54,230 nt of DNA from positions 1 to 54,230 of IMG/VR virus record IMGVR_UViG_3300023179_000138. One strand, given 5' to 3'. Source of the DNA: a virus. The notes under the pieces are model-generated. The model was not told the origin of the DNA, searched no databases, and saw only the letters and a program-made list of their open reading frames with translations. The translations under genes and the position numbers were made by a program. Position 1 is the stretch's first letter, and each line of letters begins with the position of its first letter. Positions 1-54,230 of this stretch are shown in pieces.

Positions 1-368
1 CCAGTATTAGTATTGGTATTAGTGTTGGTACCCGTATTAGGGTCTGTGGTAACAGTCTCGCCGGTATTAGTATTAGTAGTGGTTGTTTGACCTGTATTGG
101 TATTTGTGGTGGTCGTTTCGCCAGTATTGGTATTGGTGTTTGTGCTGTTACCGGTATTTAGATCAGTAGTAACAGTATTACCAGTATTGGCGTCTGTGGT
201 GGTGGTTACGCCAGTATTTGGGTTGGTGGTCGTGCTTGTATCAGTTGTGGTAGTTCCGCCAGTAGTGGTAGTTCCACCAGTGGTTGTGGTGCCCCCAGTT
301 GTGGTTCCACCCGTGGTTGTAGTGGTCCCGCCGGTCGTTGTGGTGCCGCCAGTAGTTGTAGTGGTAAC
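1..368 (-). repeat. Thr/Gly and Asn/Thr low-complexity repeat tract (left part)
   Basis: Positions 238-368 encode about seven tandem TTTTGG-like hexapeptides on the minus strand. Positions 1-237 encode Asn-Thr repeats of the form NTNTNTG(E/Q)TTTT. The tract is in frame with the giant gene and continues the tract at the right end of the window. On the plus strand the same DNA gives a meaningless Val/Pro-rich open frame. Confidence 0.9.
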
Positions 369-3300
369 GGGCACCAGAGTGTTAGACACCCTAGCTGCAT
401 TGGCTTGATCAAATCCAATTCTGCGCAGCTGATCTTGCACCAATCGGTTGGTCGCGCTTGCATCGACGGTTCCAGTCGCGCCCGGAGTCGCGCCCCTGAA
501 AACGGTATCAATTAGATCCGCACGTTGCTGCGGGGTGATATTTGTTGAACCAAGATTGGCATCAACGTCCGCACCAATAGCATTTTTGGCGTACTCGGTT
601 GCAATTGCATCGGCGGTACTCGGGCTGTAGTTATAGGTCTCAACAAGCTGGTTGGCAAATCGCTGCTTTGCTTGGCCAACACCCAACCCGGTCTTAGCCG
701 CATCCCGAACTTGGGCAGCAGCCTGTTCCGTATCTACACTACGCACCCCAGCGTTTTGCAGGATGTCTGTGACATTAGCGCCAAGGCTAATAGATCCGCC
801 AGTGCCACCACCAACGATTGCGCCGTAGGTTGCGTTGGCTGTGATGTCCTTCCAGTTGATCGGCTTGTCAGAGTTAAGGGCCTGCACCAAGAAAGATATG
901 CCGCCTTCTTCAAGGCCCTCGCTGGTAGCCTCCAACGCTCCAACCTTGCCAGTCACCCAGCCACGAGCCAGCAGCTCTTTTGCAAGATTGTCTTTAACTT
1001 GGTTCTGGACTGTTCCCATCTCGGGCGCCAGCACAGACTTGGTCAATGCCTTACCCGCCGGAGTAGTGCTAATAAACCCGGTAACGCCGCCAGCAATCAA
1101 ACCAGACTTGACAGCGGTGTCGCGGGCCATCGCGTCGGCTTGATCTGCCGTTAGCTCACCGCTGTTAACTTTTGCCTGAAGAGCCTGCCGCGCTTGAGTA
1201 AATTCGCTGTTGTACTGCGAGCCCATTGACTCGCCAATCTCCATAACAGCATCAACGGTAATGCCAAGCTTCGAGGCAATCTGCGGCGCAAACTTCAACA
1301 GCTCGGCGCCTTTCATAAATGCACCGCCTACAAAGAGTTGCGGAATCTCTTGAAGGATTTCAGACGCAACATTGAAAGCAGTGAACTTTGGATGGTCAAC
1401 AGCAAACTGACCAATGTAGGCAGCCACATCCGCCGGGGAGCCAGAGTCTTTTATAGCCTTCAAACCTTCGTAAAACTGCTTTGTCTCTGCATCAATTTCC
1501 CACGGCCTTGCATCGGCAGCGGCGGCACTGAGACTGTCAGCTTTCTTTGCCAGCCAACTGTTGTTATCAATGAGGCCAAACATCTTGGCAACACCGCTGG
1601 CATTGCCAACAAAGTTAGACAAGGCGTCCATGCCAACACCAAAAACAGCATCTCCAATAGAGGTTGGCGTGCCATCAGATTTGAACAACAATTTAGGATC
1701 AATGCCTGCCTCACCAGCAATATCAACCGCTAGCCAGCGGGGATCCCAAGCCCTTGTTGCCAAATCACCGGGCACAGCCTCCCCGGCATCTTCATATAAT
1801 TTGCGAGCGCGGTTTAGTGTTGCTACCAAATCTTCTGGACCCAGAGCCGTTCCGCCGCCTAAAAGCTCATTAGCAATAGCAGTTGCATTTGGCTTAACTC
1901 GACTCAACCCGCTATCAAGACGGACAAACTCACCGTTGTCGTAGATGTACTTAACGCCAGTTGAGGAGTCCGTGATGATGTCCGACGGGGCAAAGTAGGT
2001 GGTCTTCCCTCCACCGTAAGAGTCGTCAAACGATGTGGTCTTTCCAATGACGCCACCGACCCCGGTGTCGTAGTAAGTTGTGCCCGGGGTAGCGGTAGAG
2101 GTGCTGGTCTTTGAGGCAAAATCCAGCCCAGTCATCTGCTTGATTTCGCCGCCGACGTACTTGAGACCAGACCTTACAAGAGCGCCGCCGAAGGCAGCTA
2201 TAGGGTCTTGACCATTCCGAATAGCGTCTTGCGCGGCCTTGATTCCATCATCCACAGCAGCCGTTGTCTTGGCGTCCATAGGCGAACCCGGATCAATCCC
2301 AAGTTGCCTCTTCAGGTTGTCTGGCTTGAGCAGGTTTGATTCTTGAATCCTGTCGCCAACAACCTCAAACCCTGCGGCCAACAGGTTATTGACAAACGCT
2401 TGTTTTGGATCTTGGCCGTTAATTGACGCCATCACAGCATCAGTCGCGGCCTTTTCAAAGACCGACTTGGCTGTGTTACTTAAATTTTTAGGAACGCTAA
2501 GTCCATTGAACGATCCTGTATCAAAACCTTCTTTGCGAAGATTTTCTGGGCTCCACTTATCTACAAGGTCAGACTTGCCTCCGAAGATGGAGCTTTTTGC
2601 CGATGAAAGCCAGCGGTTCAGTTGTCCCTGAGCGCCGGCCGATAGGCCCTCAACAAACGACTGGCTCAGATCTCCAGTGCGCACCAAATTAACTGCAAAG
2701 GTACTTGCGCCACGAACTATGTCGCTGCGAAGGGCATCGCTAGGAAGATTCTTAAACCACTCTTGCTTGCTAAGCTCGCCGGCTATGGTATTGCCAAGAT
2801 ACGATGCCGCCCCGGCGGTTAAACCAGAAGTTGCAGCGCCGCTTAGAATTTGGCCAAGGTCAAACTCGCCGCCCATAACAGCGGTCTTGATGGTGTTAGT
2901 CACCACACTACCAACAGCAGCGTTGATTGCTGTGTTGATGGCAATCTGCGTAGCGGTCATGGTTGCACCGCTGGTTGCCAAGCCGGTAATGGCCCCACCA
3001 ATGCCCGGCGCCAAGATGGCAGCGCCGATACCCAGAATGATGCCGCCTAAGCCGCCTAGGAACCCATCATCTTGCGGCGTGTACGACCAATTGGCCCCAG
3101 CAAAAGAATAAGTGCCGTTGTCATTCTTAATGAAGTAAGCGGTGTGCCCACCGGTGTCTTCCGACTTGGTTTTGGCGGAGAACATCTTGTCGCTGCCAAG
3201 CACCGGGGTCAGTTTGAAGCCAATCTCTTCTGGTGTCAGATCTTTGCGATCAAAGAATCCCCCAACCTTGTTGTACATGGTGGAGGCGACCTTGCCGGCC

Positions 3301-4838
3301 ATCTGCCGTTCCCAGCCGGATAGGGTCTTGTCATTGATGGCATCGCTCAGCTTCGACAGAGAGTTCAAGTCAAAGCCAACAGTCGTGTCACCAGATTTGT
3401 ATCGCTGCGTGAGGTTATATTTTTCGGCAAACTTTAACGCCTGCTCTACGTCCGCATTGACCTTCTGACCAGCCTCGTAATACGGGCTGTCCTTTGGGAT
3501 AGATGTGACGTTAGAGTAAATCTGCCCCGACGGAGCCGAAGGTGGGGTATAGCCATCAGCAATCATCGACTGCCAATTTTTGGCAGTGAATCCCATTTCT
3601 TTTGAATAAGGCAGCTGCTCTAGTTCCTCTGGGGTCAAGGGGCGGCTGTTTGAAAGACGAAGATCTTGATAACCCGCGGCGGCCAATCGAGCCTTCTCGG
3701 TGTTGTACTCCGCTGCGTTTGCTTTCTTCTCACCAGTAACCACAAGACTGATGGTCTTGTTTTGATTCTCTAACAAGTCATCTCTTAGGCCAGAGATTGA
3801 CTTTACGAGCTCTTTGCTCTGAGTCTGCAGTGGCTTTAGTTGATTGTTGAGTTCAGTCAGCTTGGCAGCAACCTCGGGCGTGTAACCGGCAGAGCCCTTC
3901 TTGGGCAATGCATTGATTTGCTCAACAATCGGATCAATTTGTTTTTGCAAATCAGTAGATTGTTTTATTTTGCTTTGATAGTCAGTTTGGCCAGTGATAA
4001 ATTCAATCTGAGTGGTCAAATCACCAAGGGTTGTCTGTTTCTTTGTAATTTCCCCGGGCAACGCCGACAAACGATCCTTCTGCGCTTGAGTTCTTTTGCT
4101 CGACGGAATGGCCTTGATTGAGTTTTGTTCGGCAACAAGGGTGTTTAGTTCGTTTTGGGCGGCAGTTCTTGAGGTGTTGAGCGGATTGATGTCCGCCACA
4201 TTGCTCAGGAAGTCTTCTTGCAGTTGAGTTGTGAGCAGCTTTAGCTCAGAAGCTTGAGCTTGGCTAAGCGTTGAAAGGTCAGTTTTTTCAACCTTTGAAA
4301 TGGCACTATTTACGTCAGCTTGCTGTTTGAGCAAGGTTCCAAGGGTGCCGGTGTATGTGGTGCTGGGTCCTATAGACACACCACCAATTGTTTGTGATCC
4401 AGTGGCAGACCCGCCAATTGCGTCAATTTGTTTTTGCAGCGCGGCTTCTTGAGCTATTTGCGCTTTTGTGCCGGTGTAGCCTAAACCACCATAAATACTT
4501 ACAGACTTTTTCATCTGCTTATGAAGCGCAGTAAGTTGGCTTTGCAACGAGGTTTTTTGCGCGTTTTGTGCGTCTATCTGTGACTGCAGATAATCGTTAA
4601 CGGCGCCGTACTGGTTGGCCGAATATCCACTCGGGTAGTAGATTTTTCCATTGTCATTGATTGGCTTCTTAAGCGAATTAGCCAAATCTTGAGCTTTGCC
4701 TTTTGGCGAATTGGCGTCAGTTCGCGCTTGCGTCAAAGTGACAAGGGGCGGAGGAGTGGGCGCGGCAGCTATGCTGGCCGGAGTGGCCGGATTAGCAGTT
4801 AAATCAGGCAATGCAGAAGAGTTGGGGTACGTAGCCAT
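1..4838 (-). CDS. Giant virion/ejection-type protein, N-terminal ~1612 residues (runs off window)
   Basis: An open frame runs leftward from an ATG at 4838, which shares one base with the stop of the upstream gene (TGATG). It has no stop before position 1. The first ~400 residues are rich in K, Q, A and L and look like coiled coil. Glycine/alanine-rich hydrophobic segments lie near residues 590-670 and in the last third (plus positions ~790-1110), as in membrane-active ejected proteins. The chain then enters a TTTTGG-type repeat (238-368) and an Asn/Thr repeat that reaches the window edge. The same repeat, strand and frame resume at 54230, so I infer one gene continuing to 52692, more than 2100 residues in all. 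No catalytic motif or known family was recognised. It lies between the nozzle genes and the ejection-protein genes, which suggests a virion or ejected protein. Confidence 0.85.
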   Translation of the reverse strand, partial: MATYPNSSALPDLTANPATPASIAAAPTPPPLVTLTQARTDANSPKGKAQDLANSLKKPINDNGKIYYPSGYSANQYGAVNDYLQSQIDAQNAQKTSLQSQLTALHKQMKKSVSIYGGLGYTGTKAQIAQEAALQKQIDAIGGSATGSQTIGGVSIGPSTTYTGTLGTLLKQQADVNSAISKVEKTDLSTLSQAQASELKLLTTQLQEDFLSNVADINPLNTSRTAAQNELNTLVAEQNSIKAIPSSKRTQAQKDRLSALPGEITKKQTTLGDLTTQIEFITGQTDYQSKIKQSTDLQKQIDPIVEQINALPKKGSAGYTPEVAAKLTELNNQLKPLQTQSKELVKSISGLRDDLLENQNKTISLVVTGEKKANAAEYNTEKARLAAAGYQDLRLSNSRPLTPEELEQLPYSKEMGFTAKNWQSMIADGYTPPSAPSGQIYSNVTSIPKDSPYYEAGQKVNADVEQALKFAEKYNLTQRYKSGDTTVGFDLNSLSKLSDAINDKTLSGWERQMAGKVASTMYNKVGGFFDRKDLTPEEIGFKLTPVLGSDKMFSAKTKSEDTGGHTAYFIKNDNGTYSFAGANWSYTPQDDGFLGGLGGIILGIGAAILAPGIGGAITGLATSGATMTATQIAINTAINAAVGSVVTNTIKTAVMGGEFDLGQILSGAATSGLTAGAASYLGNTIAGELSKQEWFKNLPSDALRSDIVRGASTFAVNLVRTGDLSQSFVEGLSAGAQGQLNRWLSSAKSSIFGGKSDLVDKWSPENLRKEGFDTGSFNGLSVPKNLSNTAKSVFEKAATDAVMASINGQDPKQAFVNNLLAAGFEVVGDRIQESNLLKPDNLKRQLGIDPGSPMDAKTTAAVDDGIKAAQDAIRNGQDPIAAFGGALVRSGLKYVGGEIKQMTGLDFASKTSTSTATPGTTYYDTGVGGVIGKTTSFDDSYGGGKTTYFAPSDIITDSSTGVKYIYDNGEFVRLDSGLSRVKPNATAIANELLGGGTALGPEDLVATLNRARKLYEDAGEAVPGDLATRAWDPRWLAVDIAGEAGIDPKLLFKSDGTPTSIGDAVFGVGMDALSNFVGNASGVAKMFGLIDNNSWLAKKADSLSAAAADARPWEIDAETKQFYEGLKAIKDSGSPADVAAYIGQFAVDHPKFTAFNVASEILQEIPQLFVGGAFMKGAELLKFAPQIASKLGITVDAVMEIGESMGSQYNSEFTQARQALQAKVNSGELTADQADAMARDTAVKSGLIAGGVTGFISTTPAGKALTKSVLAPEMGTVQNQVKDNLAKELLARGWVTGKVGALEATSEGLEEGGISFLVQALNSDKPINWKDITANATYGAIVGGGTGGSISLGANVTDILQNAGVRSVDTEQAAAQVRDAAKTGLGVGQAKQRFANQLVETYNYSPSTADAIATEYAKNAIGADVDANLGSTNITPQQRADLIDTVFRGATPGATGTVDASATNRLVQDQLRRIGFDQANAARVSNTLVPVTTTTTGGTTTTGGTTTTTGGTTTGGTTTTGGTTTTGGTTTTDTSTTTNPNTGVTTTTDANTGNTVTTDLNTGNSTNTNTNTGETTTTNTNTGQTTTTNTNTGETVTTDPNTGTNTNTNTNT

Positions 4839-5104
4839 CAGTTCACCTGCGGATTCATTGCGCCAAGAAGGGCGGTCGCCCAGTCTTCCCACTTCTCATA
4901 CTGTGCGGGGTTTGGGACAGCTTCATTGGTGAAGATGTCGATAGCCAGAAGGCCCTGCCCCCAGAGCTTCCAATCGGTTTGGTTGTTGGGGATCTCTAGC
5001 TGTTGAGCGGCGTACTGCTCACCCATAAGGCATGCCCACGACTCGAAGGTGTGGTAGCGAGGATCATAGACAAGCTGCTGTACGGTATTAGTAACCACGC
5101 ACAT
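4838..5104 (-). CDS. Conserved-looking small phage protein, 88 aa
   Basis: This ORF overlaps the end of the nozzle gene by 17 bases and its stop shares a base with the start of the giant gene, so it sits in a tightly coupled chain of late genes. The product is soluble-looking, acidic and rich in Trp, Tyr and Gln (for example WKLWGQGLLAID), with no membrane segment. I cannot assign a function. Its place between the nozzle and the giant protein suggests a minor virion component or assembly factor. Confidence 0.75.
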   Translation of the reverse strand: MCVVTNTVQQLVYDPRYHTFESWACLMGEQYAAQQLEIPNNQTDWKLWGQGLLAIDIFTNEAVPNPAQYEKWEDWATALLGAMNPQVN

Positions 5105-8100
5105 CTCCCAAATCTGCGCTGATGATGATGCGGCCTAGCTGGTAGTCGCCACCTTGTGAGTTTGAGATAAATCTCAATCGCAGCTCTCGGCGCTGCTCAC
5201 GCATGTCAATTTTATGCGTGTCCGGCAGGAAGGTATACGGATCCGATTCGTAGTCGTCTGCCTGAGCGTATGGGCGCCCGGTGACAATTAGATCCATCGG
5301 CCCGCTCTGCAAGAAGTCGGGTTCTACACGCTCGACTCGCAACCAGTTATTGTCGGCGACCTGAGAGGGTTGCGCGGGACCGCCAGACACCCAGCCGAGG
5401 TCATTGGTCTCGAAGTAGGACTCAATAGCCAAAGCCTGATTGCCTTTGACGGCATCGGTGCCAATCTCATGTTGATACAAAGACACAAACGTCTTCACCG
5501 AGGTAAGGGTCATAGTGAAGCTGCTGCCGGCGGGCAGGCTGGCAGACAGTACATCTCCAACAACATAGTCAACGCCGTAGCCGGTGATGGTTACTGAAGT
5601 CACGGCTCCACCGCTTACCACAATTGTGGCAGTTGCCCCGGTGCCAGAGCCTCCGGTTAGGGCTTTGTTCAGATAGGTGCCATTGGTGTATCCAGACCCC
5701 GCGGTAAAGGTGAACAGATCCAGCCCACCCGTAGCGTTCGGCGTCCAGTCTGCATTGATTGGGTAGTGGAAGATTTGCGAGAAGTAGCCATCAGATCTGC
5801 GGGCGCCTAAAGCCTGCCCAGCGTCATACCAGCAGTTCTCGCGGATGTTGTAGATGACAGCGTCCGTACACTCGGTGGCGTCGCCTCGAGGGTAGAACCA
5901 CCAAATCTCGCCAAACCGCGGAACCTTGGTTGCCCACACCTTCTGACGCTGGGCGTAGTTCAGGTTGTCAAAGAAGTAGTTCTGGTTAAACGAGTTTGGG
6001 ATTTCTTTGACGGCGCCGTTGTATAGCAAAAATCTATCAACACCGCACCAGTAATAGATTCCGTCATACTCAATCACAGACTGTGAGGACATGATTGAGG
6101 ACTGGCTAGAGATGATGTCATAACGCCAGTACTGGGTTGGGGTTCCTACGCCACCCACATAGCTCACGCGCACAAGACTGTCGAGGCTCCAGAAGAGCCC
6201 AGATGGCGCATTAGAGCCGCCTCTGACGGGTAGACCTTGCACAATTTTGCCGGTGGCCACGTTGACCTCGTTGGCGTCTGCAGACACCCAGTCATTTATG
6301 TTGGCGCCCCCGCAGTTCTTAATCAGGCCGTCGTTACCGTACACAAACACATACGGATGCAGCGACACAACACCACCAGAGACGGAGATGTTGTTGTTGA
6401 AGGTCAGAGTTGAGGCGCCTGTTGTTGTGGCCGCATTTGACAGGACTACCTGCTGGAACACGCCTAATGTAAAGATGAATCCAGTCGTGCTGGTGACTAC
6501 CGTTGTCACCGCAGACCCACCGGCGGTGGCGGATAGCGTGAACGTGTTTAAGTTGTTTGTGGCAATGATGTAGTAGGTTAATCCGGCCGATAGGCCAATG
6601 CTGTTGTTTACCGTAAACACCAGATCATTCAGCCCCGTTACTACCGTTGTGATTGCCGACCCGCCGCTAGTAGCGGATAAGGTGAACGTGGAAGTCCCAT
6701 TGGTCGCGGTGATGTAATAAGTAGTTCCGCTAGTTACCCCGGAGTACTGTTTTGTTTTGAAGGTCAAACCTGTGGTAGCTCCAAACGTATTCGTAATCGC
6801 CGGGCCATTGGGCAAAACAGATAGGGTAAAACTTGACGTTCCGTTGGTCGTAACGATGTAGTACGTCTGCCCCGAAGACACACCGATGCCAACAGGTCCT
6901 TTGAACACCAATCCACTTATTGACACTACGTTTGTGTTGATTGCTTGACCATTGATGGCATCGCTCAACGTAAACGTCGATGTGCCATTAGTGGCAATGA
7001 TGTAGTACAGAGAATTAGACTGAACACCGCTGATTAAAACAGTCTGAAACGTCAAGCCGGTGGTTGTGCCAGCCGTAGTTGTAATAGCTGTGCCATCTTG
7101 TGTTGCCGACAAAGTAAAGGTTGATGTGCCGTTTGTGGCAATGATGTAATACGTCGCGTTGGTGCTGATGCCGGTCGCCGTACCAGTTAGTGTGCCCGTG
7201 ACATTTATGGCTTGGCCTACATACAACCCGGTTGTGGCAGTGCAGGAGCACTGGCCAGCAGTCCCGGTGACCGCCACAGATGCCAATGTAGCAGCAGCTT
7301 GAGTGCCAGTTACATAAATAGGCTGCCCAACATACAAACCGGTTGTAGCAGTGCACGAAAACTCACCGCTTACGCTAGTGATGGCCACGCTTGATAGGGT
7401 GTTCACATTTATCGTGCCAGACACTGTTACCGGCTGGCCAACAGCCAGACCAGTTGTAGATGTGCACGAGAACGTACCGCTCGATCCCGTAATTGCCACG
7501 CTAGCCAAGGTGGTGTCAGCCACAGACCCAGAAACGACAACGGCTTGGCCGACATACAAACCGGTCGTGGATGTGCATGAGAAAGTGCCGCTAGTGCCTG
7601 TGACAGCAACCGAAGCAAGGTTTTTGCTGCCAAGAGATCCAGCAACTGAAACAGTCTGGCCTACATACAACCCGCTAGTGTTAGAACAAGAGAATGTACC
7701 GCTTGTCCCAGTCACAGCAACAGTGCTCAACGTGGGGCTAATCAAGTTAGTGCTCACAACACTTGTTGAGGCCGGAATGCCAGTTCCTGTAACCGTCTGT
7801 CCAGCACCAATCAACGCATCGGTCTCCGATATGGTGACGTTGACGGTTGAGTTTAGGTAGGCGTTTGAATCGGTGAACACGCCAATCTGGCTTAAAGACG
7901 TGCCAGTCAGAGCCCCACCCAGTACTGGGGTATTTGCATCGCTATCAGTCAACGCAAGGTTCTGCCCCGGGTGAGCCAACAACAGGTTGTCCCCAGATCC
8001 ACTGACATCGGTGAAGGTATCAAACTGCCATAGATTGTTATCGTTAGGCGTAAACCCAGACAGGGTGAGGTTTGACACACCAGAGCCAACGCCATTGGCG

Positions 8101-8351
8101 TCGATTGGAAGCCTCTGCAGCCCGTTGTTATACCCGCTGAATACGTTGGTAAAGCCGTTCTGCGGGTTGACGTACAGTCCGCGAGACGGACCGGCGAGGA
8201 TGTTTGTAATCTCTTGGTATCCGCCCACCTTCCGCGGGCGCCCACGCTGAAACCGCACCCAACGACCATTGGTGTAGAAGTTCTTGTCAAAGAACGTACC
8301 GTCTCGTTGAATGCCGGCAACGCTATCGAGGGCAAAGACCTTTTTGGTCAT
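5088..8351 (-). CDS. Tail nozzle / P22 gp10-like protein with inserted repeat arrays, 1087 aa
   Basis: The N-terminal ~200 residues (including a GRWVRFQRGRPRKVGGYQ segment) and the region from about residue 650 onward (EYDGIYYWCGVDRFLLYNG, then IWWFYPRGDATECTDAVIYN) look like the packaged-DNA stabilisation/tail nozzle proteins of short-tailed phages. Between them lie five copies of a ~33-residue repeat built on TSGTFSC..TTGLYVGQ (about residues 205-385). These are followed by five copies of a ~50-residue repeat built on YYIIATNGTSTFTLSATxxG (about 395-630). The ATG overlaps the stop of the upstream fibre-like gene. The protein should form the distal tail tube that closes the channel after packaging. 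Family assignment is from recalled similarity, not a search. Confidence 0.75.
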   Translation of the reverse strand: MTKKVFALDSVAGIQRDGTFFDKNFYTNGRWVRFQRGRPRKVGGYQEITNILAGPSRGLYVNPQNGFTNVFSGYNNGLQRLPIDANGVGSGVSNLTLSGFTPNDNNLWQFDTFTDVSGSGDNLLLAHPGQNLALTDSDANTPVLGGALTGTSLSQIGVFTDSNAYLNSTVNVTISETDALIGAGQTVTGTGIPASTSVVSTNLISPTLSTVAVTGTSGTFSCSNTSGLYVGQTVSVAGSLGSKNLASVAVTGTSGTFSCTSTTGLYVGQAVVVSGSVADTTLASVAITGSSGTFSCTSTTGLAVGQPVTVSGTINVNTLSSVAITSVSGEFSCTATTGLYVGQPIYVTGTQAAATLASVAVTGTAGQCSCTATTGLYVGQAINVTGTLTGTATGISTNATYYIIATNGTSTFTLSATQDGTAITTTAGTTTGLTFQTVLISGVQSNSLYYIIATNGTSTFTLSDAINGQAINTNVVSISGLVFKGPVGIGVSSGQTYYIVTTNGTSSFTLSVLPNGPAITNTFGATTGLTFKTKQYSGVTSGTTYYITATNGTSTFTLSATSGGSAITTVVTGLNDLVFTVNNSIGLSAGLTYYIIATNNLNTFTLSATAGGSAVTTVVTSTTGFIFTLGVFQQVVLSNAATTTGASTLTFNNNISVSGGVVSLHPYVFVYGNDGLIKNCGGANINDWVSADANEVNVATGKIVQGLPVRGGSNAPSGLFWSLDSLVRVSYVGGVGTPTQYWRYDIISSQSSIMSSQSVIEYDGIYYWCGVDRFLLYNGAVKEIPNSFNQNYFFDNLNYAQRQKVWATKVPRFGEIWWFYPRGDATECTDAVIYNIRENCWYDAGQALGARRSDGYFSQIFHYPINADWTPNATGGLDLFTFTAGSGYTNGTYLNKALTGGSGTGATATIVVSGGAVTSVTITGYGVDYVVGDVLSASLPAGSSFTMTLTSVKTFVSLYQHEIGTDAVKGNQALAIESYFETNDLGWVSGGPAQPSQVADNNWLRVERVEPDFLQSGPMDLIVTGRPYAQADDYESDPYTFLPDTHKIDMREQRRELRLRFISNSQGGDYQLGRIIISADLGDVRGY
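6460..7740 (-). repeat. Two arrays of in-frame tandem repeats inside the nozzle gene
   Basis: The 7195-7740 part encodes five ~33-aa repeats with the core GTFSCTSTTGLYVGQ. The 6460-7190 part encodes five ~50-aa repeats with the core YYIIATNGTSTFTLS. The copies are recognisable at DNA level and keep the reading frame. They are probably small beta-rich surface domains inserted in the nozzle. Confidence 0.85.
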
Positions 8352-22692: not shown

Positions 22693-23607
22693 TTACACAC
22701 CCGGGGTGCCGTACATGGCACGCGGGTCGGTGAAGCCAACGTCGTAACGCTCGGTTGCCTTGTAGCGCATCGAGTCAGTTTCGAAATCGCCTTCCATCGT
22801 CTTCTCGAGACGACGACGCATCAGAAGCTTCATGCCTTCCGGCGCATCGGTCTGCACCCACCAAGCGGTCGGCGAGGTCAGACGCGAGATAACGGCAGCA
22901 CCTTCATCAAGCAGACCAATCGACTTGATCGGGTTGATGTCGTTGTTGGCGTTACCAGCACGCAGGACGCTCTTCAGCAGAACTTCAGCTTGGAAGATGT
23001 TGCCCGGGGCCACGACCAGTTGGCGCGGAACCAGACGAATCTTCTTGCCGTTGTTGTCCACAGCCTGACGGATCTGGATGAGCATTTGCTCAAGCGAGGT
23101 CTGCGACAGGTTTGCCGAGGTGGTCAGCAGATTGCTGAAGGTACCGTTGACGATCGGGTGCGAAGCCGAGTTCAGAGCCACGCCGTCACCGCCCGGGTAC
23201 GCGCTGTTGAAGGCGCGGTTCAGGACGTTGGCACTCAGAGTTTCCTTGGTTTCGACCAGCGACTGGGCCAAGTGACGGGCATAGACTTGACCGATACGGA
23301 TATGGTCGCCGTCTTCCACCAGCACCTTGGTCAGAGCGAATGCCAGACCGTACACGTTATAGACATAACGCTTCAGGAACAGCACGCCACCCTGTTGGTA
23401 GGTGACCGGGGTGCCGTCCGGCAATTGCGGAGCTGCACCAAAGCCGTAAAGGACCGGCTCTTCGTGATAGTTGCGGGGGATACCTTCTTGTTCGCGGAAA
23501 ACACGCGACCATTCGTCGGTACGCTGATCGTAGACACCGTCGAAGCACTCGTTAAGAATGGGTTCGACAATGCTACGAAAGTCTGTACTGCGCATCGGGG
23601 CTGCCAT
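22693..23607 (-). CDS. Major capsid protein, 304 aa
   Basis: The length and pattern fit an HK97-fold capsid subunit. A short N-terminal arm is followed by a long middle with ETKETLSANVLNRAFNSAY and LRAGNANNDINPI. The C-terminal part (WVQTDAPEGMKLLMRRRLEKT, then RYDVGFTDPRAMYG) resembles capsid proteins of podophages and Mu-like phages. It has a near-consensus AAGGAGG site, lies after the scaffold and a small capsid-associated gene, and is followed by a terminator. These are all usual for the major head protein. I assigned it from pattern and context. Confidence 0.8.
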   Translation of the reverse strand: MAAPMRSTDFRSIVEPILNECFDGVYDQRTDEWSRVFREQEGIPRNYHEEPVLYGFGAAPQLPDGTPVTYQQGGVLFLKRYVYNVYGLAFALTKVLVEDGDHIRIGQVYARHLAQSLVETKETLSANVLNRAFNSAYPGGDGVALNSASHPIVNGTFSNLLTTSANLSQTSLEQMLIQIRQAVDNNGKKIRLVPRQLVVAPGNIFQAEVLLKSVLRAGNANNDINPIKSIGLLDEGAAVISRLTSPTAWWVQTDAPEGMKLLMRRRLEKTMEGDFETDSMRYKATERYDVGFTDPRAMYGTPGV

Positions 23608-33700: not shown

Positions 33701-35113
33701 TTAGACCGCATAGGGATTCTGCCGCTTGGGCATCCCTGAATCAGCATAATCGTCATCATCCCAATCATCTGCCGGCGGAGGATCTATATCAAGCCATCCT
33801 GCATCTCGTAAGAATCGCAGGGCCTGAGTACAGGCATCGACGTAGTCATCATGCGTGCAGTCAGGGAACGAACAGATCTGGCTGACAAACCCTTCCGCCC
33901 AGTCCCTGACGTAGCCGGGCCTCTGTGAGCTCTCAGGGATCCATACACGCCCTCGAGCGATGATGTTGGACACGATGTTCAGGCGCTGCATCTTGTCGGC
34001 TCTGCCGGGGTTGTAGGCCCTCACAGGCAGGTGCGCACGCTGCAAGTCTTGGATCAGCGAGATGCCAGCAGACTTGTCCTCGACCAGTATCAGGTCTACC
34101 CGCTTGCGCTCTTTGCCTTCACCGAAGACGGTCTCGTACTCGTCAATAACCTTGGGTCGCAGGTCAGGGTATTGCAGGCGGTCTTGCCAGCAGTCGATGA
34201 CCATGGCGGACATTGGACCATCCAGCGGCTTGAACACGCCGAAGGTGATGCAGGCGGTCGGATCGTTCTGTACCTTTTCGCTGGTGGCCACGTCATAGGA
34301 CTGGACGATGTACTCGAACTTGGGAAACTCTTTGCCCGAGGGCCAGAGCTTGAACATGTCACGCTTAACGATGCCCGACTCTTCGGGGTCAAGAATCTCA
34401 GCGTAGATTTCCTGCCGGCCAATCTTGGTGCCCTCATACTGCAGGATCTGCTTTTGAAAGCTAGGCGCTAGGTTGGCGATGTTGTCATAGGTCGATGCGG
34501 TGGTCAGGACTACATCGTCGCCCTCTCGAGACACCAGATCGACAATCAGGTCTTTCGGCCGCGGCGTGGTGGTGGCGACTATCCGCGTCTTGTTACCCAG
34601 ACGCACGCCGAACATGATCTGGTCCCACGCGTCCTGCAGGTAGTCCCATGCGGCCAGCTCGTCTAGCCATGCACCGTGATACTGGCCACCCCGGAAACGC
34701 TCGGGCTCACTGGCGGGGATGCCCTTGATCAGGGATCCATTGGTGAGCTTCAGCTCGTGGTATGCGCGGTTGTAGTCGGCGACCAGCTCTTTGGGTATGA
34801 CGTTGATCAGACCGGAGTCACCCTCATAGCAGGTGGCACGCACGTCAGCAGATGTAGGAGCCGCTACAAGCCAGCGGGTGCCGGGCTCTGTCCATGCCCA
34901 CCAACCAACCTGTTCGGCCGCGGTTCTGGTCTTGCCTGCACCACGTCCAGCAAGCAGCAGCCAGATGGTCCACCAGTCACCGATTGGGACTACTTGGTGC
35001 TTGTGAGCCTTTGAGAGCCACTCAGCACGCCACGCCCATGCGGCCTGCTGCTCTGGTGTCAGAGCCTTGAACTTAGCCCGGACTTCTGGATCTCGAAGAA
35101 GCTCAACGCTCAC
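33701..35113 (-). CDS. terL: Terminase large subunit, 470 aa
   Basis: The ATPase has Walker A AGRGAGKT (55-62) and Walker B AWLDE (148-152). The nuclease part shows QSYDVA (Asp274), LILVEDKSAG (Glu345/Asp346) and THDDYVDA (Asp422/Asp423), the expected acidic cluster of RNase H-fold terminase nucleases. It drives DNA into the prohead through the portal and cuts it. The start is a GTG overlapping the stop of the 56-aa gene (GTGA). The length is normal for the family. Confidence 0.95.
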   Translation of the reverse strand: MSVELLRDPEVRAKFKALTPEQQAAWAWRAEWLSKAHKHQVVPIGDWWTIWLLLAGRGAGKTRTAAEQVGWWAWTEPGTRWLVAAPTSADVRATCYEGDSGLINVIPKELVADYNRAYHELKLTNGSLIKGIPASEPERFRGGQYHGAWLDELAAWDYLQDAWDQIMFGVRLGNKTRIVATTTPRPKDLIVDLVSREGDDVVLTTASTYDNIANLAPSFQKQILQYEGTKIGRQEIYAEILDPEESGIVKRDMFKLWPSGKEFPKFEYIVQSYDVATSEKVQNDPTACITFGVFKPLDGPMSAMVIDCWQDRLQYPDLRPKVIDEYETVFGEGKERKRVDLILVEDKSAGISLIQDLQRAHLPVRAYNPGRADKMQRLNIVSNIIARGRVWIPESSQRPGYVRDWAEGFVSQICSFPDCTHDDYVDACTQALRFLRDAGWLDIDPPPADDWDDDDYADSGMPKRQNPYAV

Positions 35114-42894: not shown

Positions 42895-42903
42895 AAAAGA
42901 AAA

Positions 42904-46760: not shown

Positions 46761-46770
46761 GGAGAAAAGC

Positions 46771-46977: not shown

Positions 46978-47021
46978 TCTAAAGCCGATGGGTTGTCCAC
47001 GAGTTAATTGGGAGAGCAAAA

Positions 47022-47219: not shown

Positions 47220-47530
47220 TGTCCGTCAACTTTGAAATCCTGCAGTCCAATGTCATTCAATGGGCGTTGGACCGCGGGATTGTTCATCACTCAAATCCTC
47301 GGGCTCAACTGCTGAAGATGTTCAGCGAGGCCGGGGAGCTTGCAGACGGCGAAGCAAAAGGAAAGCTTGACGACATCGAAGATGCCGTTGGCGACATCGC
47401 TGTCTGTCTCATCATCTACTGCCACTTCTATGGCCTGACCGTGCCGAAGTGTCTCGAAGCCGCTTGGCATGAGATCAAGGACCGCAAAGGTCGAATGATT
47501 GAAGGTGGCGTCTTCGTGAAGGAGTCTTGA
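47219..47530 (+). CDS. MazG-like nucleotide pyrophosphohydrolase, 103 aa
   Basis: The all-alpha NTPase signature is visible as FSEAGELADG (Glu37, Glu40) followed by DDIEDAVGDIAV (Glu54, Asp59), the metal-binding residues of MazG-like enzymes. The length fits a single-domain form. It probably hydrolyses NTPs or alarmone-like nucleotides to favour phage growth, as proposed for other phage MazG proteins. The start overlaps the preceding stop and the stop overlaps the nuclease start. Confidence 0.8.
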   Translation: MSVNFEILQSNVIQWALDRGIVHHSNPRAQLLKMFSEAGELADGEAKGKLDDIEDAVGDIAVCLIIYCHFYGLTVPKCLEAAWHEIKDRKGRMIEGGVFVKES

Positions 47531-48288: not shown

Positions 48289-48300
48289 AAGGAGAGAACC

Positions 48301-48507
48301 ATGCTAACCAATGAAGACTTCCGCAAGCTTTACCTGCAGTGTGACTGCAAAGACTTTGAGAATGGCGTCTTCGCCGACGAGGTGGACATCCTCGAGTACG
48401 GCCGGGCCGTCGAGGTTGAAGCTGCCAAACGCGAGCGAGAGCGATGCATTGAGTTTGCTGCTACCCTGAACAAGGTTGTGGCGGAGGCGATGCAAGAGCA
48501 GCTGTAA
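48301..48507 (+). CDS. Unknown acidic small protein, 68 aa
   Basis: A strong AAAGGAGAG site precedes the ATG. The product is acidic, has two close cysteines (LQCDCKDFENG) and a helical C-terminal half with VEVEAAKRERERCIEFAATL. This end resembles the AEREACA-type helix of the duplicated protein at 40703-41044. It is the last rightward early gene before the shared terminator. Confidence 0.7.
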   Translation: MLTNEDFRKLYLQCDCKDFENGVFADEVDILEYGRAVEVEAAKRERERCIEFAATLNKVVAEAMQEQL

Positions 48508-48511
48508 AAAA

Positions 48512-48531
48512 AGCCCCTCACACGAGGGGCT
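48512..48531. terminator. Bidirectional terminator between early and late operons
   Basis: AGCCCCTC-ACAC-GAGGGGCT is a perfect 8-bp hairpin. On the minus strand it is followed by seven T residues, making a strong intrinsic terminator for the late operon that ends at 48601. On the plus strand it lies just after the last early gene (48507) without a T-tract. Confidence 0.9.
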
Positions 48532-48600
48532 AATCACTTCTAAGGAGGAAGCTCAGTTAAGAGCACTCCGATGGTGTCAGATGAACATCACAGGCGTATT

Positions 48601-50010
48601 TCAGAACCCAAAGTCGCCCATGGGGTTTGACGGGATTACGTCAGGCTTATAGCCAAGCCGCTCATTCTCTCGAGCGCGATCGCGTGCAAAACGAGCGGCG
48701 GCGGCTGCTGCACTTACTGGGATGCCCACTGCAGCGGTAGCTGGATGTATGGAAGCCAACCCGCCCAGACCTTCAACTGCAGACAAAGCAATCTCGCCAG
48801 CATCAGGGTTGGGCTTGCGAAGCTCTTGAGCCACTCTTGTTACATCACCAGCGGCTAAAGCGCCACCAGCAGCTGGACTTAAGTAACGCATCAACGGCGT
48901 ATTGGCAAACCGACGAAATAGCGAAGTAACCTCTTCAAGCGCACCAGCGGGCTTGGGAGTAACTGGCGATACCGGGGGGGGTTTTGCACCACCAATCTGG
49001 CCTTGAGGGCCTCGGGGGCCAGTGTATGGGGTCTGCTTAGGAACCATCAAACCACCACGAGTCGGGTCTTCAGCCATGCCAGCGGCGGGGGCCATACCTT
49101 GCAGACGCTCAAGTGCGGCAGCACGAGCCTTAATCAGCTCATCAGCACTACCCGGCGCATTGCCCATAGCGGTGGCGCGACCAGCCTCAATGTCACCAAG
49201 ACCAAATTTTTTACCCCAGTTGGCCGTACCAGATCCACCGGCAGGTTGCCCACCACTAATATCTGGGCCAGCGGGGCTTACACCAGCCAAAGGCGTCCCT
49301 GCCGCCGGAGGCATTCCGCCAGTGACGGGAGCAATGTTTCTAGCACTTGCAGCACCCTCTGCCGCTTTGCGTGCTAGGTTTTCAACCACGCTACCACCGA
49401 TGTCTCTGGCGCCTTGAGCAAGACCCAAAGCAGCTCCGGCGCCGCCACCATATATCTGCGCCTGACGAACGTCTTGATCGTCTATGTTCTGTTTCAAGCG
49501 CCGCTCAATCTCTTCTGGGCTTTCTTCTTGACTGGGCTGAACTTGGGGAGCTTGCGGCTCTGTCTGGACCTCAGCTACTTGGGGCTGAGATTCAAATGCA
49601 CCGAACTCTTTTAATGACCGTAAGTAGTTCTCCGTCTCTTTGGGCAGTTCGCCGCCGGCAAAGAACGGGTGCGCAGGGCCCGCGTTGTAAGCAACCACGG
49701 CCAAGCGCGGATCATCTGGGAATTTGTCGAGCATGTCTTTCAAAACTCGAACGCCAACGTCAATGTTGGTGTCCGGGTCAATCAACTCTTTTTTGTCTAC
49801 GCCATACGCTTTGGCGGTGCCCGGCATGACTTGCATAATGCCAAGTGCGCCCTTCGGGCTGCTTCCAACATTTGGGCGAAGTCGGCTCTCTTGATAGGCA
49901 ACAGATACGGCCAGATTTGGGTCAATGCCAAGCTGTTTTGCCTTTTCGGCGACTTTGATGGCAAAGTCTACTTGTTCATCATCTAAGTCTTTTTGGAAAG
50001 ATAGAGGCAT
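48601..50010 (-). CDS. Ejection protein with lytic transglycosylase domain, 469 aa
   Basis: The N-terminal ~115 residues form an SLT domain: YQESRLRP with catalytic Glu41, GALGIMQVMP (55-64) and VAYNAGPAHP (106-115). A Gln/Glu-rich linker and Ala/Gly-rich segments follow, including hydrophobic stretches near 190-200 and 385-445. Such proteins travel in the virion and locally open peptidoglycan during DNA entry, as P22 gp4 or T7 gp16 do. It is the last gene of the late operon, directly before the strong terminator. GenBank-style TAGGGAAATAATA precedes the ATG. Confidence 0.85.
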   Translation of the reverse strand: MPLSFQKDLDDEQVDFAIKVAEKAKQLGIDPNLAVSVAYQESRLRPNVGSSPKGALGIMQVMPGTAKAYGVDKKELIDPDTNIDVGVRVLKDMLDKFPDDPRLAVVAYNAGPAHPFFAGGELPKETENYLRSLKEFGAFESQPQVAEVQTEPQAPQVQPSQEESPEEIERRLKQNIDDQDVRQAQIYGGGAGAALGLAQGARDIGGSVVENLARKAAEGAASARNIAPVTGGMPPAAGTPLAGVSPAGPDISGGQPAGGSGTANWGKKFGLGDIEAGRATAMGNAPGSADELIKARAAALERLQGMAPAAGMAEDPTRGGLMVPKQTPYTGPRGPQGQIGGAKPPPVSPVTPKPAGALEEVTSLFRRFANTPLMRYLSPAAGGALAAGDVTRVAQELRKPNPDAGEIALSAVEGLGGLASIHPATAAVGIPVSAAAAAARFARDRARENERLGYKPDVIPSNPMGDFGF

Positions 50011-50012: not shown

Positions 50013-51704
50013 TTATTTCCCTAGCAGTTCATCAAGGCGACGGGACGCACTATCAGACGGTTTGCGCTCACGAGAAGGAACAGCGGGCGCAGTTCCAAAG
50101 ATAGATGCAAGCCGTTTTTCAAACGCTCTTTCAAGATTCTTTGCGCCCGTCGAACGCTCAAACTGATCAATCGTGCCATTGGGGTTTTGATCTTGCCACT
50201 GGTGGAAGGCATCAACACGGTCAATGTCGTACTGGGAACGCTCTTTCAAAAGCTGCATACGAGATTTCAAAACGCTTGGGCTGTTACTAACACCGCCACC
50301 TAATCTGCGGACAATGGCACGTTCACCCTCAGTGATTGCACCCTGTTTTGTTAAATATAGTTGCGTGTAAGCAAGCTCAATTTCGGCAAGATCGGCCGCT
50401 GCGTTAGTGACAGCGTCCAAGTCCTTTTGTTGAACGCCGGGCATAATTTTACGCATGGCGTTTTCAAAAGTGCCCTTTTCAACAGTAGCCTGAGGCGTTC
50501 TTTTAATGTCATCAAGAATGCTGCCAATTGATGCGACAAACCCCGGGCGCTCAAAGAGGCCAAAGTAGTTCCCAGACTTCTTGACAGCGTCTTCAACACG
50601 AGACGCAGAGCTATAAATGCTACGGGCCGATTGTTGAATTTTAGGCAACTCAGCCTCTCGAGCGGCGCTGGTTTCGGAGCGTTTTTGGGCTAACGCTTTT
50701 AACCGCGCTTCTTCAATTGCACGATCAGACTTTTCCTGCTCTTCCATCCTTTTTTGTTCTTCAACAGACAGGAACCTTGGCTGGCCGCCCGTTGGCGCTT
50801 GAGGCGCAGCTCCGGTTGGAGGATTCGCTGGTGTAGTTGTGCCTTGAGTTGGGGCTGCGGGAAGACCCGGGCTTATGTAAGGCTTGGCAAGGCGCATGTA
50901 CGTCGCTATGTCATTCCGAGACAAGGCATCGTCCATTTGCAAAGCAATCCCTTCTGGCACTTCAATTGTTGAAGGCTTGCCATCCCGAGACGGCACCTGA
51001 CGTTTTTCTAGCGTACCGGTCGGGCGGCCGTAGAACTTGCCAGTGCTGGCGTCAAACATTCCAGATTCTTTAATGTCGCGGCGCTTACGAAGAACCTCTT
51101 CCCACTTTAGAACAGCTTCTTCATACGGAACATTTTCCCTTCGCTGCTTGGCAAGGAACTGCTCTCGAGTCAGCAGCCCTTCCATAGGGGGCGCAATTTG
51201 AACACCTTGCGGGACACCTTGAGCGGCCGGGCTGGGCAATGCACCGCCCTCTGGGGCGGCTCCCGAAGGTGCGGAGCCATAGGCAATTAAAGGCCCAGTA
51301 GGACTGCCGCGGTCTGGCGCTTTAAAAAATCCCGCGGAAAGAGCACCCTGCGGAGCCATATCGTTTTGATATGACTTGTCTGCCTCTTTAAGGCGCTGCA
51401 GCGCAAGACCTTGCGTTGCTATATCTAGCTTGCCCTTAGCAATGTTCTGCTCTTCAAGGGCCATGGCCTCGTCGGCTTTGTTGACGTTGCCGACCACATT
51501 GCCAAGCACCTCACCCCAGCCACCAGTCCTAGTAGGCGCAAAGAACCCTTGGGCAGCTGCGGCCCAACGGGGATCCAGAATCCTATTCTTGCGCACATCC
51601 AACGACTGATTAAGCCTTGCCAATGCCTCTTGATATGCGCGATTGGCCTCAATGGCTTCTTGAGAAGTTTCTGGTAGATAGCCTACTGTAGATTTGTCAG
51701 CCAT
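50013..51704 (-). CDS. Internal virion / ejection-type protein, 563 aa
   Basis: This soluble, helix-rich protein has a Pro/Gly/Ala linker region (about residues 120-185 and 285-310), a long charged coiled coil (FLSVEEQKRMEEQEKSDRAI to KALAQKRSETSAAREAELPK), and a helical C-terminal domain (RSIYSSASRVEDAVKKSGNY, then LRRDELLGK-like end). It lies between two likely ejected proteins and the transglycosylase. By analogy with T7/P22 internal proteins it should be injected with the DNA. No specific family was recognised. Confidence 0.65.
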   Translation of the reverse strand: MADKSTVGYLPETSQEAIEANRAYQEALARLNQSLDVRKNRILDPRWAAAAQGFFAPTRTGGWGEVLGNVVGNVNKADEAMALEEQNIAKGKLDIATQGLALQRLKEADKSYQNDMAPQGALSAGFFKAPDRGSPTGPLIAYGSAPSGAAPEGGALPSPAAQGVPQGVQIAPPMEGLLTREQFLAKQRRENVPYEEAVLKWEEVLRKRRDIKESGMFDASTGKFYGRPTGTLEKRQVPSRDGKPSTIEVPEGIALQMDDALSRNDIATYMRLAKPYISPGLPAAPTQGTTTPANPPTGAAPQAPTGGQPRFLSVEEQKRMEEQEKSDRAIEEARLKALAQKRSETSAAREAELPKIQQSARSIYSSASRVEDAVKKSGNYFGLFERPGFVASIGSILDDIKRTPQATVEKGTFENAMRKIMPGVQQKDLDAVTNAAADLAEIELAYTQLYLTKQGAITEGERAIVRRLGGGVSNSPSVLKSRMQLLKERSQYDIDRVDAFHQWQDQNPNGTIDQFERSTGAKNLERAFEKRLASIFGTAPAVPSRERKPSDSASRRLDELLGK

Positions 51705-51711: not shown

Positions 51712-52689
51712 TTACCCCGGCGGTGGAGTTCCATCTGGATTATCCAGATTTGTCCAATCAACTGAATTTGCGAGTGCATCAATTTCTTCAGCTGTCAATG
51801 TGTAATCCCCAAGGCCAAAGGTTTCAAGAATTTTCTGAAGGCCCTTTTTAACGCCTTGTGCGCCTCCAACGCCACCAATGACAGACAAAATCCCACCAAT
51901 GTTTTGAAAAGCTGATTGACCAAATTGGCCTTGCTGGCCCGGGGCAACAGTTTTTTCAGTTGACGAAATGGGAATCTGATAGTTGCGCAATAGTTGAGAT
52001 ACGTTTGTTGCATTGGTCAACGGATAATCCAGAAGGCTCTGCTGGTACTTCTGTCGTTCAGCCCCGGCACCGGTCAAAGCCTTGGCTCCGGCAAGTCCAA
52101 GCGTTTGCTGTTGTTCAGCAATCTTGGCTTGTGTTTGAGCGGCTTGGTTTTGCAGCTGCGCCTCATCAAGCGTTGCCTTGAGGGCATTCTGATAGCCAGA
52201 TGATAAAGCGCCATACTGTTTGCCAGTAAGGTCTGATTGAACATCAGCAAGTGTTTGACCCAAGGCACCAGCGTAGCGTTGGCTGCCTAATGCGCCGGAT
52301 CCAACAAACCCAGCCTTTACGGTTGGCAACAGGTTGCGCTGCAGATTCTGCTGCGACAACCGCGTCATCTCATTGACCACGTTCTGTTGGTACGGGTCCA
52401 TAAATTGAGAAATGCGCGACGTATCAATGCCACCGGCAACCTTTGCTGCGGTCTTCCCGGCGGCATCTAGGCCCGGCTTATAAGCACCAGCGGCAGCTTC
52501 ATACTGACCGTAGCCAGCAGTTTGCAAAGGATCGTACCCAGCAACACCCTCGGCGGCCGTCCTAGTAAGAGCGCCTTGGCCAACATTGGACAAAGCGTTC
52601 AGATAGTCAGTGTAGTAGCCCGGCGCTGACAGATTTTTGTCAACGGTTGTTGTTACGTTAGGTAACGCTTGGCCTTGAAAGAATCCCAT
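51712..52689 (-). CDS. Internal virion-type protein, 325 aa
   Basis: This Ala/Gln-rich helical protein has SRISQFMDPYQQNVVNEMTR and GAGxxGSQRYAGALGQTLAD-type segments and a Gly-rich hydrophobic stretch (FQNIGGILSVIGGVGGAQGV) near residue 275. Similar (D/N)PYQQxVV(D/N)E...GSGALGSQR patterns recur in phage structural proteins of unknown fold. It follows the giant protein and precedes the ejection proteins. Delivery into the cell or a place in the tail interior are both possible. Confidence 0.65.
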   Translation of the reverse strand: MGFFQGQALPNVTTTVDKNLSAPGYYTDYLNALSNVGQGALTRTAAEGVAGYDPLQTAGYGQYEAAAGAYKPGLDAAGKTAAKVAGGIDTSRISQFMDPYQQNVVNEMTRLSQQNLQRNLLPTVKAGFVGSGALGSQRYAGALGQTLADVQSDLTGKQYGALSSGYQNALKATLDEAQLQNQAAQTQAKIAEQQQTLGLAGAKALTGAGAERQKYQQSLLDYPLTNATNVSQLLRNYQIPISSTEKTVAPGQQGQFGQSAFQNIGGILSVIGGVGGAQGVKKGLQKILETFGLGDYTLTAEEIDALANSVDWTNLDNPDGTPPPG

Positions 52690-52691
52690 CT

Positions 52692-54230
52692 TTATCTCCT
52701 GCGCTTATTTGATTTGCCGCTTAGGTAATCAAGCGGTGATTTGGCCGGCGGCGGCAAATCTTTAACATCAGTAGACCTAGCACGCTTTCTGATGTTATGC
52801 ATCATTTCGTACAGTTTATCAGAGCCCGCTTTGGTGGAACCATTGCCGAGAGCGGCAACTACGTCAGCAGGGAACACAAACTCACCGTCTGCCAGCATCG
52901 CCGGGATCTCGTCTGATTGGCCATCACCGATGCCCGTTACGGCATCACCCTTACGGTAGTCCACTCTGTGCTTACCGGCCGCCTCAACGATGTCTAGTGC
53001 CCCATGGGCGTTCTGTCCATAACGCGTGCCGCCTTGGGCCATCAGGGGCGCTGGCATACCGCCACTAGCCATCAAAGGCGTAGCCATGCCCCCACGCTTA
53101 AAGCTGGCAACAGTCCCAAAGTCAAACATAGAGTCGTTGACCGGCTTTGTAAGGCCCAGAACATCTTCAATGCTTTCTGACTGCCCATAGTTGAAGTAAC
53201 TAGAAGGCTTGGGGGCTTGAACTCGAGTTTGCTGCATACCTTGCTGTCCTTGTTGTTGAGCCCCCGGAGCTTGACTGGCGGCAACTTGTTTCAAAAATTG
53301 ATCAAGCGGGCTTGTAAATTTTGCTTCTCCACCAGTAAGTAGCGGGCTCAATGGAGTTGACGCTGGCTGAGCGACTGGGGGCGCATAGGAAGGCCCAGCC
53401 GCAACACTTTGAGCGGCAGATTGAAACTTTTGGTTTGCGGCGTCTTGCGCTGCTTTCTTTGCAGCATCGTCTACGGCTTTTTTCCGCGCCTCTTCGGCAG
53501 CAGAAGAGGCGTCCGCCTGTTCTTTCAAAATTCTGTTTTGCTCGGTAATAGCAGCAATCAACGCTTCATTAGTATTGGTATTAGTATTGGTATTAGTGTT
53601 TGTGTTGGTATTGGTATTGGTACCAGTATTAGTATTGGTGGTGGTAGTATCACCGGTATTAGTATTGGTATTAGTGTTGTTACCAGTATTGGTATTGGTT
53701 GTGGTACTTTCACCAGTATTGGTGTTTGTATTAGTGCTATTACCAGTATTAGTATTGGTGGTGGTAGTATCACCAGTATTAGTATTGGTATTAGTATTGT
53801 TGCCAGTATTAGTATTGGTTGTAGTACTTTCACCAGTATTGGTGTTTGTATTGGTATTGGTACCAGTATTGGTATTGGTGGTAGTGCTTTCACCAGTATT
53901 GGTATTAGTATTGGTGTTAGTGCCGGTATTAGTATTAGTGGTGGCAGTATCACCAGTATTAGTATTGGTATTAGTATTGTTGCCAGTATTAGTATTGGTT
54001 GTAGTACTTTCACCAGTATTGGTGTTTGTATTGGTATTGGTACCAGTATTGGTATTGGTGGTAGTGCTTTCACCAGTATTGGTATTAGTATTGGTGTTAG
54101 TGCCGGTATTAGTATTAGTGGTGGCAGTATCACCAGTATTAGTATTGGTATTAGTATTGTTGCCAGTATTAGTATTGGTTGTAGTACTTTCACCAGTATT
54201 GGTGTTTGTATTGGTATTGGTACCAGTATT
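52692..54230 (-). CDS. Giant virion/ejection-type protein, C-terminal ~512 residues (continues off window)
   Basis: The frame is open from the window edge. About 220 residues of Asn/Thr repeats lead into EALIAAITEQNRILKEQADA and a coiled coil, then Gln/Pro/Ala-rich linkers. A SFKRGG motif follows, and then a C-terminal domain (DEIPAMLADGEFVFPADVVA, LGNGSTKAGSDKLYEMMHNI) ending in basic residues. This C-terminal pattern is recurrent in phage virion proteins. No start codon with a ribosome-binding site exists after the repeats, so I treat it as the end of the gene starting at 4838. Confidence 0.8.
   Translation of the reverse strand, partial: NTGTNTNTNTNTGESTTTNTNTGNNTNTNTNTGDTATTNTNTGTNTNTNTNTGESTTTNTNTGTNTNTNTNTGESTTTNTNTGNNTNTNTNTGDTATTNTNTGTNTNTNTNTGESTTTNTNTGTNTNTNTNTGESTTTNTNTGNNTNTNTNTGDTTTTNTNTGNSTNTNTNTGESTTTNTNTGNNTNTNTNTGDTTTTNTNTGTNTNTNTNTNTNTNTNTNEALIAAITEQNRILKEQADASSAAEEARKKAVDDAAKKAAQDAANQKFQSAAQSVAAGPSYAPPVAQPASTPLSPLLTGGEAKFTSPLDQFLKQVAASQAPGAQQQGQQGMQQTRVQAPKPSSYFNYGQSESIEDVLGLTKPVNDSMFDFGTVASFKRGGMATPLMASGGMPAPLMAQGGTRYGQNAHGALDIVEAAGKHRVDYRKGDAVTGIGDGQSDEIPAMLADGEFVFPADVVAALGNGSTKAGSDKLYEMMHNIRKRARSTDVKDLPPPAKSPLDYLSGKSNKRRR
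53564..54230 (-). repeat. 60-bp/180-bp tandem repeat encoding Asn/Thr repeats (right part)
   Basis: About eleven 60-bp units encode 20-residue blocks such as NTNTNTGESTTTNTNTGTNT. Units group into an exact 180-bp higher-order repeat: 53821-54000 and 54001-54180 are identical, and 54181-54230 continues the third copy. The period is a multiple of three, so all frames stay open. The window ends inside this array. Confidence 0.95.

Follow-up and report, generated by a model that had tools for sequence, protein, structure and literature searches.

A giant late gene divided between the two ends of an uncultured phage contig, and a putative role of its product in DNA ejection

The IMG/VR record IMGVR_UViG_3300023179_000138 is a phage contig of 54,230 bp, analysed here over its whole length (hereafter, the window), both ends of which lie within a repeat encoding Asn, Thr and Gly, with a unit of 60 bp (20 aa). 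Do the two open reading frames (ORFs) that run into this repeat belong to one giant gene and, if so, what could its product do? The window ends are very probably the two halves of a single gene, as comparison with related phages suggests, and we give a probability of about 0.8 to this join taken together with a virion-protein role for the giant protein. The parts of the gene are the following:

1..4838, minus strand: N-terminal part of the giant gene (1,612 codons), open at the left end; its ATG overlaps the upstream stop (TGATG); 65% identical to the intact ORF of the relatives L006/L007
1..370, minus strand: left part of the repeat, TTTTGG/TGGTTT units, then diverged 60-bp NTNTG units
3009..3065, minus strand: hydrophobic Gly-zipper segment GFLGGLGGIILGIGAAILA, residues 592-610, a possible membrane segment (Kyte-Doolittle scan)
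52692..54230, minus strand: C-terminal part of the giant gene (512 aa plus stop), open at the right end
52722..52976, minus strand: near-invariant C-terminal region GDGQSDDIPAMLADGEFVFPADVV...GNGSTKAGSDKLYEMMHxIR (alignment of 35 sequences), common to tape-measure PHROGs
53568..54230, minus strand: continuation of the repeat at the right end, 11 copies of the 20-aa unit (NTNTNTNTGESTTTNTNTGN) arranged in a higher-order period of 180 bp; unit identity 0.97/0.91/0.54 at codon positions 1/2/3
53766..54230, no strand assigned: exact 285-bp direct repeat

The two ends and the missing repeat units

According to the sequence-only reading of the window, the left frame from 4838 and the right frame down to 52692 enter one Asn/Thr repeat without a stop codon. 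Our reading of the ORFs confirms this: the N-terminal ORF runs from the ATG at 4838 off base 1, and the C-terminal frame comes in from base 54230 and ends at 52692, after 513 codons including the stop. The internal start said to be lacking is indeed absent if only ATG is considered within the repeat, but a TTG is present at 53561. The window has no end overlap (no exact match of at least 10 bp between its ends), and the bare ends are out of frame with each other (4838 mod 3 = 2). The earlier suggestion that some repeat sequence is missing was borne out by aligning the left units to the profile of the right units in the 60-bp register, which gives a missing piece of 22+60k bases (22 mod 60), i.e., 1 mod 3, so that the frame of the giant gene is restored across the break. 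The best phase of this fit reaches a match of 0.74, compared with 0.69 for the second, which is half a unit off and gives an identical frame, and with a mean of 0.30 over all phases; register and frame would agree by chance in one case out of three. The computed minimum for the giant protein is ~2,132 aa, in line with the >2100 residues announced, with 20 aa to be added for each additional repeat unit.

The open frame itself is weak evidence for the join, because the right-hand repeat is stop-free in 4/6 frames; the left repeat is stop-free only in the sense frame. Units located 20 codons apart agree at 97/91/54% of codon positions 1/2/3, indicating that the sense frame is the frame under constraint. 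The real evidence for one gene is thus this codon-position bias and the relatives, rather than the open frame. In L006 and L007, the closest relatives with a complete gene, whose giant genes are identical and count as one independent case, both window halves are covered by a single ORF of 1,896 codons (65% identical to the left half over its residues 39-1489, 62% to the right half). A search with the C-terminal part of the giant yielded 80 relative loci. The C-terminal region belongs to a complete ORF in 75 of them, with a homologue of the 88-aa gene that precedes the giant in the window upstream and, wherever the contig extends that far, a homologue of the neighbouring 325-aa gene downstream. 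The locus order of the relatives with a complete gene (88-aa gene, giant, ejection-like gene, 563-aa gene and transglycosylase gene) is unbroken. As far as these relatives tell, only repeat units appear to be missing between the window ends. Exact-pattern scans of viral contigs yielded no near-identical contig spanning the junction.

It is very improbable that the ends correspond to two separate genes sharing a repeat (paralogues or a misassembly), with a coincidental join. Such a situation would fit the openness of the right repeat in most frames and the fact that in L015, L016, L025, L030, L048 and L068 the 88-aa gene is separated from the C-terminal ORF by 0.4-2.7 kb of additional coding sequence, as though the giant were split into two genes. 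However, these split relatives keep the low-complexity zone in their C-terminal ORF, the closest relatives carry the N-half, the repeat and the C-half in one ORF, and the register predicts the correct frame.

A circularly mapping genome opened within a repeat

The window is best explained as an almost complete phage genome with a circular map. Its opening within the repeat of a circular genome, already proposed from the sequence, is supported by the intact gene of the relatives, by circular collinear relatives and by the exact repeat at its right end. Circularity was assessed by comparison with 11 near-full-length relatives (52-57 kb). All 11 share a common gene order that closes to a circle, and their contigs are opened at differing places; in four of them both contig ends carry exactly the same 123 or 127 bp in direct orientation, a signature typical of circular assembly, at positions other than that of the window ends. 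The order around the giant locus is also as in the window in the Manatee Spring phage (complete, circular, 57,457 bp) and in Caulobacter phage GB2A (complete). Roseobacter phage CRP-901 is more distantly related, with a 42% identical capsid protein; for this phage, a 52.9-kb contig likewise needed closure by polymerase chain reaction (PMC10149686).

The likely cause of the break inside the giant gene is the exact 285-bp direct repeat at the contig end (53766-54050 = 53946-54230), which extends up to the last base with a period of 180 bp, three 60-bp units of the right array forming one higher-order period. Elsewhere in the window (ends excluded), the longest exact repeat is 22 bp. The end repeat would exceed an assembly k-mer of 123-127, a value deduced from the end overlaps of the relatives. 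Interruption of short-read viral assemblies by repeats is documented (COBRA paper, PMC10914622), and the window resembles the breaks described there in being a contig of a circular genome that ends within a repeat longer than the k-mer, but differs in having no residual exact maxK end overlap. The absence of this usual overlap, which means that the contig is not literally closed, is a point against circularity. A general excess of contig ends within the giant gene was not supported (5 observed, ~14 expected), and the break is peculiar to the window's own array. In intact relatives, exact repeats in the giant gene are at most 53 bp, a figure biased by the fact that contigs carrying long repeats would be broken and escape detection. 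The break is an ordinary assembly artefact. The least credible of all alternatives is a linear virion DNA whose physical ends coincide with those of the window, with a terminal repeat or a cos site in the giant gene. This would suit a record without end overlap, but relatives have the giant locus in their interior and are opened elsewhere, at many different positions, and the window ends mid-gene within a repeat.

The record looks like a linear fragment, yet it is an almost complete genome whose largest late gene has to be read across the ends; in metagenomic phage contigs generally, genes with repeats lie concealed at the contig ends. Because the genome order closes into a circle, late transcription can be followed through the giant gene: it most likely runs from 35780 to 5088, then through the giant gene to 48601, and stops at the terminator at 48531-48512. 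The late operon as delimited before (from 35780 through the break to 48601) stands, all late genes from the ATG at 35780 to 48601 being located on the minus strand with gaps of at most 404 nt, and a terminator was rightly placed at its end, with an 8-bp stem and T6 just past 48601. The other features of the window are listed below:

4838..5104, minus strand: 88-aa gene, conserved neighbour directly upstream of the giant, present in relatives
5088..8351, minus strand: tail nozzle homologue, 1,087 aa (profile matches to PDB 8zkm/8zkk and 9nwi; phrog_3287)
22693..23607, minus strand: major capsid protein, ~87-96% identical among near-full-length relatives
33701..35113, minus strand: terminase large subunit, close to the start of the late operon
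48512..48531, minus strand: intrinsic terminator closing the late operon
48601..50010, minus strand: SLT lytic transglycosylase virion protein, final gene of the late operon (Pfam SLT, 2.6e-24; PHROG internal virion/lytic tail proteins)
50013..51704, minus strand: 563-aa gene, third of the cassette, without family match and with conserved order
51712..52689, minus strand: 325-aa gene of the DNA-ejection-protein family phrog_4287 (family search)

A candidate ejection protein

We consider it reasonably probable that the giant is a podovirus ejection (pilot) protein, mislabelled as a tape measure in its relatives. This role is our best guess because of the position of the giant, its hydrophobic Gly-zipper segment and the short homologue of the Planktothrix phage Pag-Yong1, a protein of 294 aa reduced to a hydrophobic segment and the C-terminal motif. 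The giant lies in a structural cassette, with the nozzle homologue upstream, the phrog_4287 gene next to it and the SLT gene at the end. In profile searches, the nozzle homologue matched the nozzle proteins of PDB entries 8zkm/8zkk (E ~2e-9) and 9nwi (E 1.2e-8). In 24 out of 34 relatives, the product of the 325-aa gene matched phrog_4287 (DNA ejection protein; best E 2.6e-12, 0.0057 for the window member itself), as did its counterparts in Caulobacter phage GB2A and in DSL-LC04; in the latter, which has the same cassette, the last gene is annotated ‘DNA transfer protein’. Caulobacter phage RW and uncultured contigs of 52-57 kb are relatives of the window phage, which is probably short-tailed, since it has a nozzle homologue and none of the scanned window proteins was recognised as a tail-tube or major tail protein.

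As an ejection protein, the giant would be the first member of a four-gene cassette (giant, 325 aa, 563 aa and SLT transglycosylase). Packaged in the head, it would exit via the portal and the nozzle and help to build a channel through the cell envelope. The Thr/Asn/Gly-rich repeat could be a disordered linker tolerating passage through the portal and bridging the lineage-specific N-terminal part, with its hydrophobic segment, and the conserved C-terminal region, which may dock on a conserved partner or serve as a packaging signal. Ejection proteins are known to be mosaic, and podovirus cassettes of this form have been described (PMC8954989). The locus resembles those of the T7 gp14/gp15/gp16 and P22 gp7/gp20/gp16 ejection proteins by a cassette beside the nozzle gene, a transglycosylase member, a phrog_4287 member, a hydrophobic segment and mosaic evolution (PMC8954989). 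It differs by four genes instead of three and by a giant without detectable sequence match, whose long low-complexity linker and conserved C-terminal motif we did not find described for T7 or P22. In the part of the literature covered, we found neither papers on low-complexity linkers in ejection proteins nor any description of a repeatedly replaced low-complexity linker or of a swapped N-terminal part.

Several observations weigh against an ejection role. The giant has no sequence match with known ejection families, and its C-terminal motif matches tape-measure PHROGs. Hydrophobic segments rise above the Kyte-Doolittle threshold in only 33/75 relatives, with a single segment in the window protein, and the AlphaFold model of the C-terminal region is of low confidence. 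Some giants show collagen-like or tail-fibre-like matches, mostly due to low complexity. Finally, the fold search with the 325-aa protein gave no PDB match below E 0.38 and weak viral matches, several of which bear tail-spike (S74) chaperone domains. Collagen and adhesin matches of the giants in Pfam/NCBIfam were discounted as low complexity.

Some of these observations would suit a tail-surface fibre or adhesin, with a variable N-terminal part on a collagen-like or disordered stalk and the C-terminus as an anchor, which we regard as unlikely but as the most serious competitor of the ejection role. A few relatives have collagen-like and tail-fibre matches, and DUF4214, CBM_14 and GDSL domains were each detected in one or two; the giant is hypervariable, with swapped modules, and S74-chaperone proteins are among the fold matches of the 325-aa neighbour. 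However, the collagen-type matches concern 2/30 and are a product of GTT/GxY low complexity, and tail-fibre families are matched by other window genes. The Gly-zipper and the cassette position beside phrog_4287 and SLT genes suit ejection proteins, and the conserved end of the giant is its C-terminus, unlike that of known fibres, which are usually conserved at the N-terminus.

The giant belongs to a family called ‘tape measure’ by annotators on the strength of its C-terminal motif. The homologues of Caulobacter phages RW, GB2A, RLK and KcrB (‘tail length tape measure protein’, 580 aa) and of DSL-LC04 (‘tail tape measure protein’, 759 aa) share with it the locus, the C-terminal motif, a Gly-zipper segment and a low-complexity or 19-aa tandem repeat ahead of the motif, but they are far shorter, have another type of repeat and are ~44-45% identical over 60-80 C-terminal residues only. 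The motif, GDG-SD-IPAxLADGEFV, is also that of siphovirus tape measures (phrog_6090, phrog_3547 and phrog_17300), and several tape-measure PHROGs were matched by 35/35 members tested. A true tail tape measure is nevertheless quite improbable. The window phage encodes a podovirus nozzle homologue and, among the proteins scanned, no tail-tube or major tail protein; furthermore, the length of the giant varies freely, from 294 to ~3,000 aa, and differs by 36 to 620 residues between strains with 93-98% identical flanks, shifts that would alter the tail length set by a ruler. The cultured relatives of the same design (Caulobacter phages RW/GB2A) make the role of the giant testable.

Constant and exchangeable zones of the giant

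Only 6% of ordered pairs of N-terminal parts from 65 relatives align over half their length, whereas the same pairwise coverage test gave 98% for the last 150 residues of the giant, 97% for the 325-aa gene, 96% for the nozzle and 92% for a 412-aa gene. Pairwise coverage was used instead of single-linkage clustering, which merged 75/76 N-terminal parts via shared modules. In three pairs of relatives (L025 and L030, L063 and L064, L009 and L012), the flanking genes are 90-98% identical and the N-terminal part contains unrelated stretches. For instance, L025 and L030 are ~98% identical on both flanks and have unrelated N-terminal sequences, and L063 and L064 likewise in part. This makes the N-terminal part of the giant a recombination hot spot.

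At least 40 low-complexity residues are present in the giant ORF of 77/80 relatives (median 209 aa), usually immediately before the near-invariant C-terminal region (GDGQSDDIPAMLADGEFVFPADVV...LYEMMHxIR). Among other genes, low complexity was detected in 1/74 nozzle, 0/75 88-aa and 2/77 325-aa genes; it is common in the 563-aa gene (31/40). The composition of the repeat depends on the lineage, e.g., (TG)n, (GS)n, TGTTGT, PAPTPSP, PTDITPPPVDV, NTNTG or Ala/Gln-rich. The uncultured contigs L006/L007, which resemble the window in gene order, in neighbours (~60-70% identical) and over the whole N-terminal half (65%), differ from it by a Pro-rich PTDITPPPVDVT repeat that replaces the NTNTG repeat. 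In most arrays, third codon positions agree only at 22-41% between units and the amino-acid pattern is retained, which indicates that low complexity is maintained in the protein and does not reflect fresh DNA slippage. A recent 180-bp tandem amplification is superimposed on the window array. The Manatee Spring phage counterpart of the giant (L087, 10282-12201) is Cys-rich, with CxxC clusters, where relatives carry a Thr/Gly/Pro repeat.

The repetitive linker and the N-terminal half change fast between related phages, the C-terminal end being nearly constant. One could speculate, with rather little confidence, that the giant is a modular delivery protein, in which a disordered linker and the near-invariant C-terminal region, acting in packaging and ejection, would deliver an exchangeable N-terminal part into the host. 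This part might be a membrane-channel piece, an enzyme or an effector, in a slot swapped wholesale between near-identical phages, and the amino-acid type of the linker might have been replaced repeatedly with low complexity itself being kept. In this widespread group of uncultured phages, one conserved locus retains a low-complexity linker and exchanges its N-terminal part, whereas there is hardly any change in the capsid, the nozzle and the C-terminus.

Near-full-length relatives share 87-96% identity in the major capsid protein, compared with mostly 40-80% in their other genes. The counterpart of the capsid protein in Caulobacter phages RW/GB2A is 76% identical and annotated ‘hypothetical protein’; the authors who described these phages report that no capsid gene was identified (PMC11053796). 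The nozzle protein of the window contains an insertion of ~435 residues (residues ~200-635) made of beta-type tandem repeats (ASVAVTGTSGTFSCTSTTGLYVGQ; TYYIIATNGTSTFTLSA). This insertion is absent from most relatives (~660-760 aa); longer ORFs of the nozzle gene are also present in L048, L054, L062 and L067.

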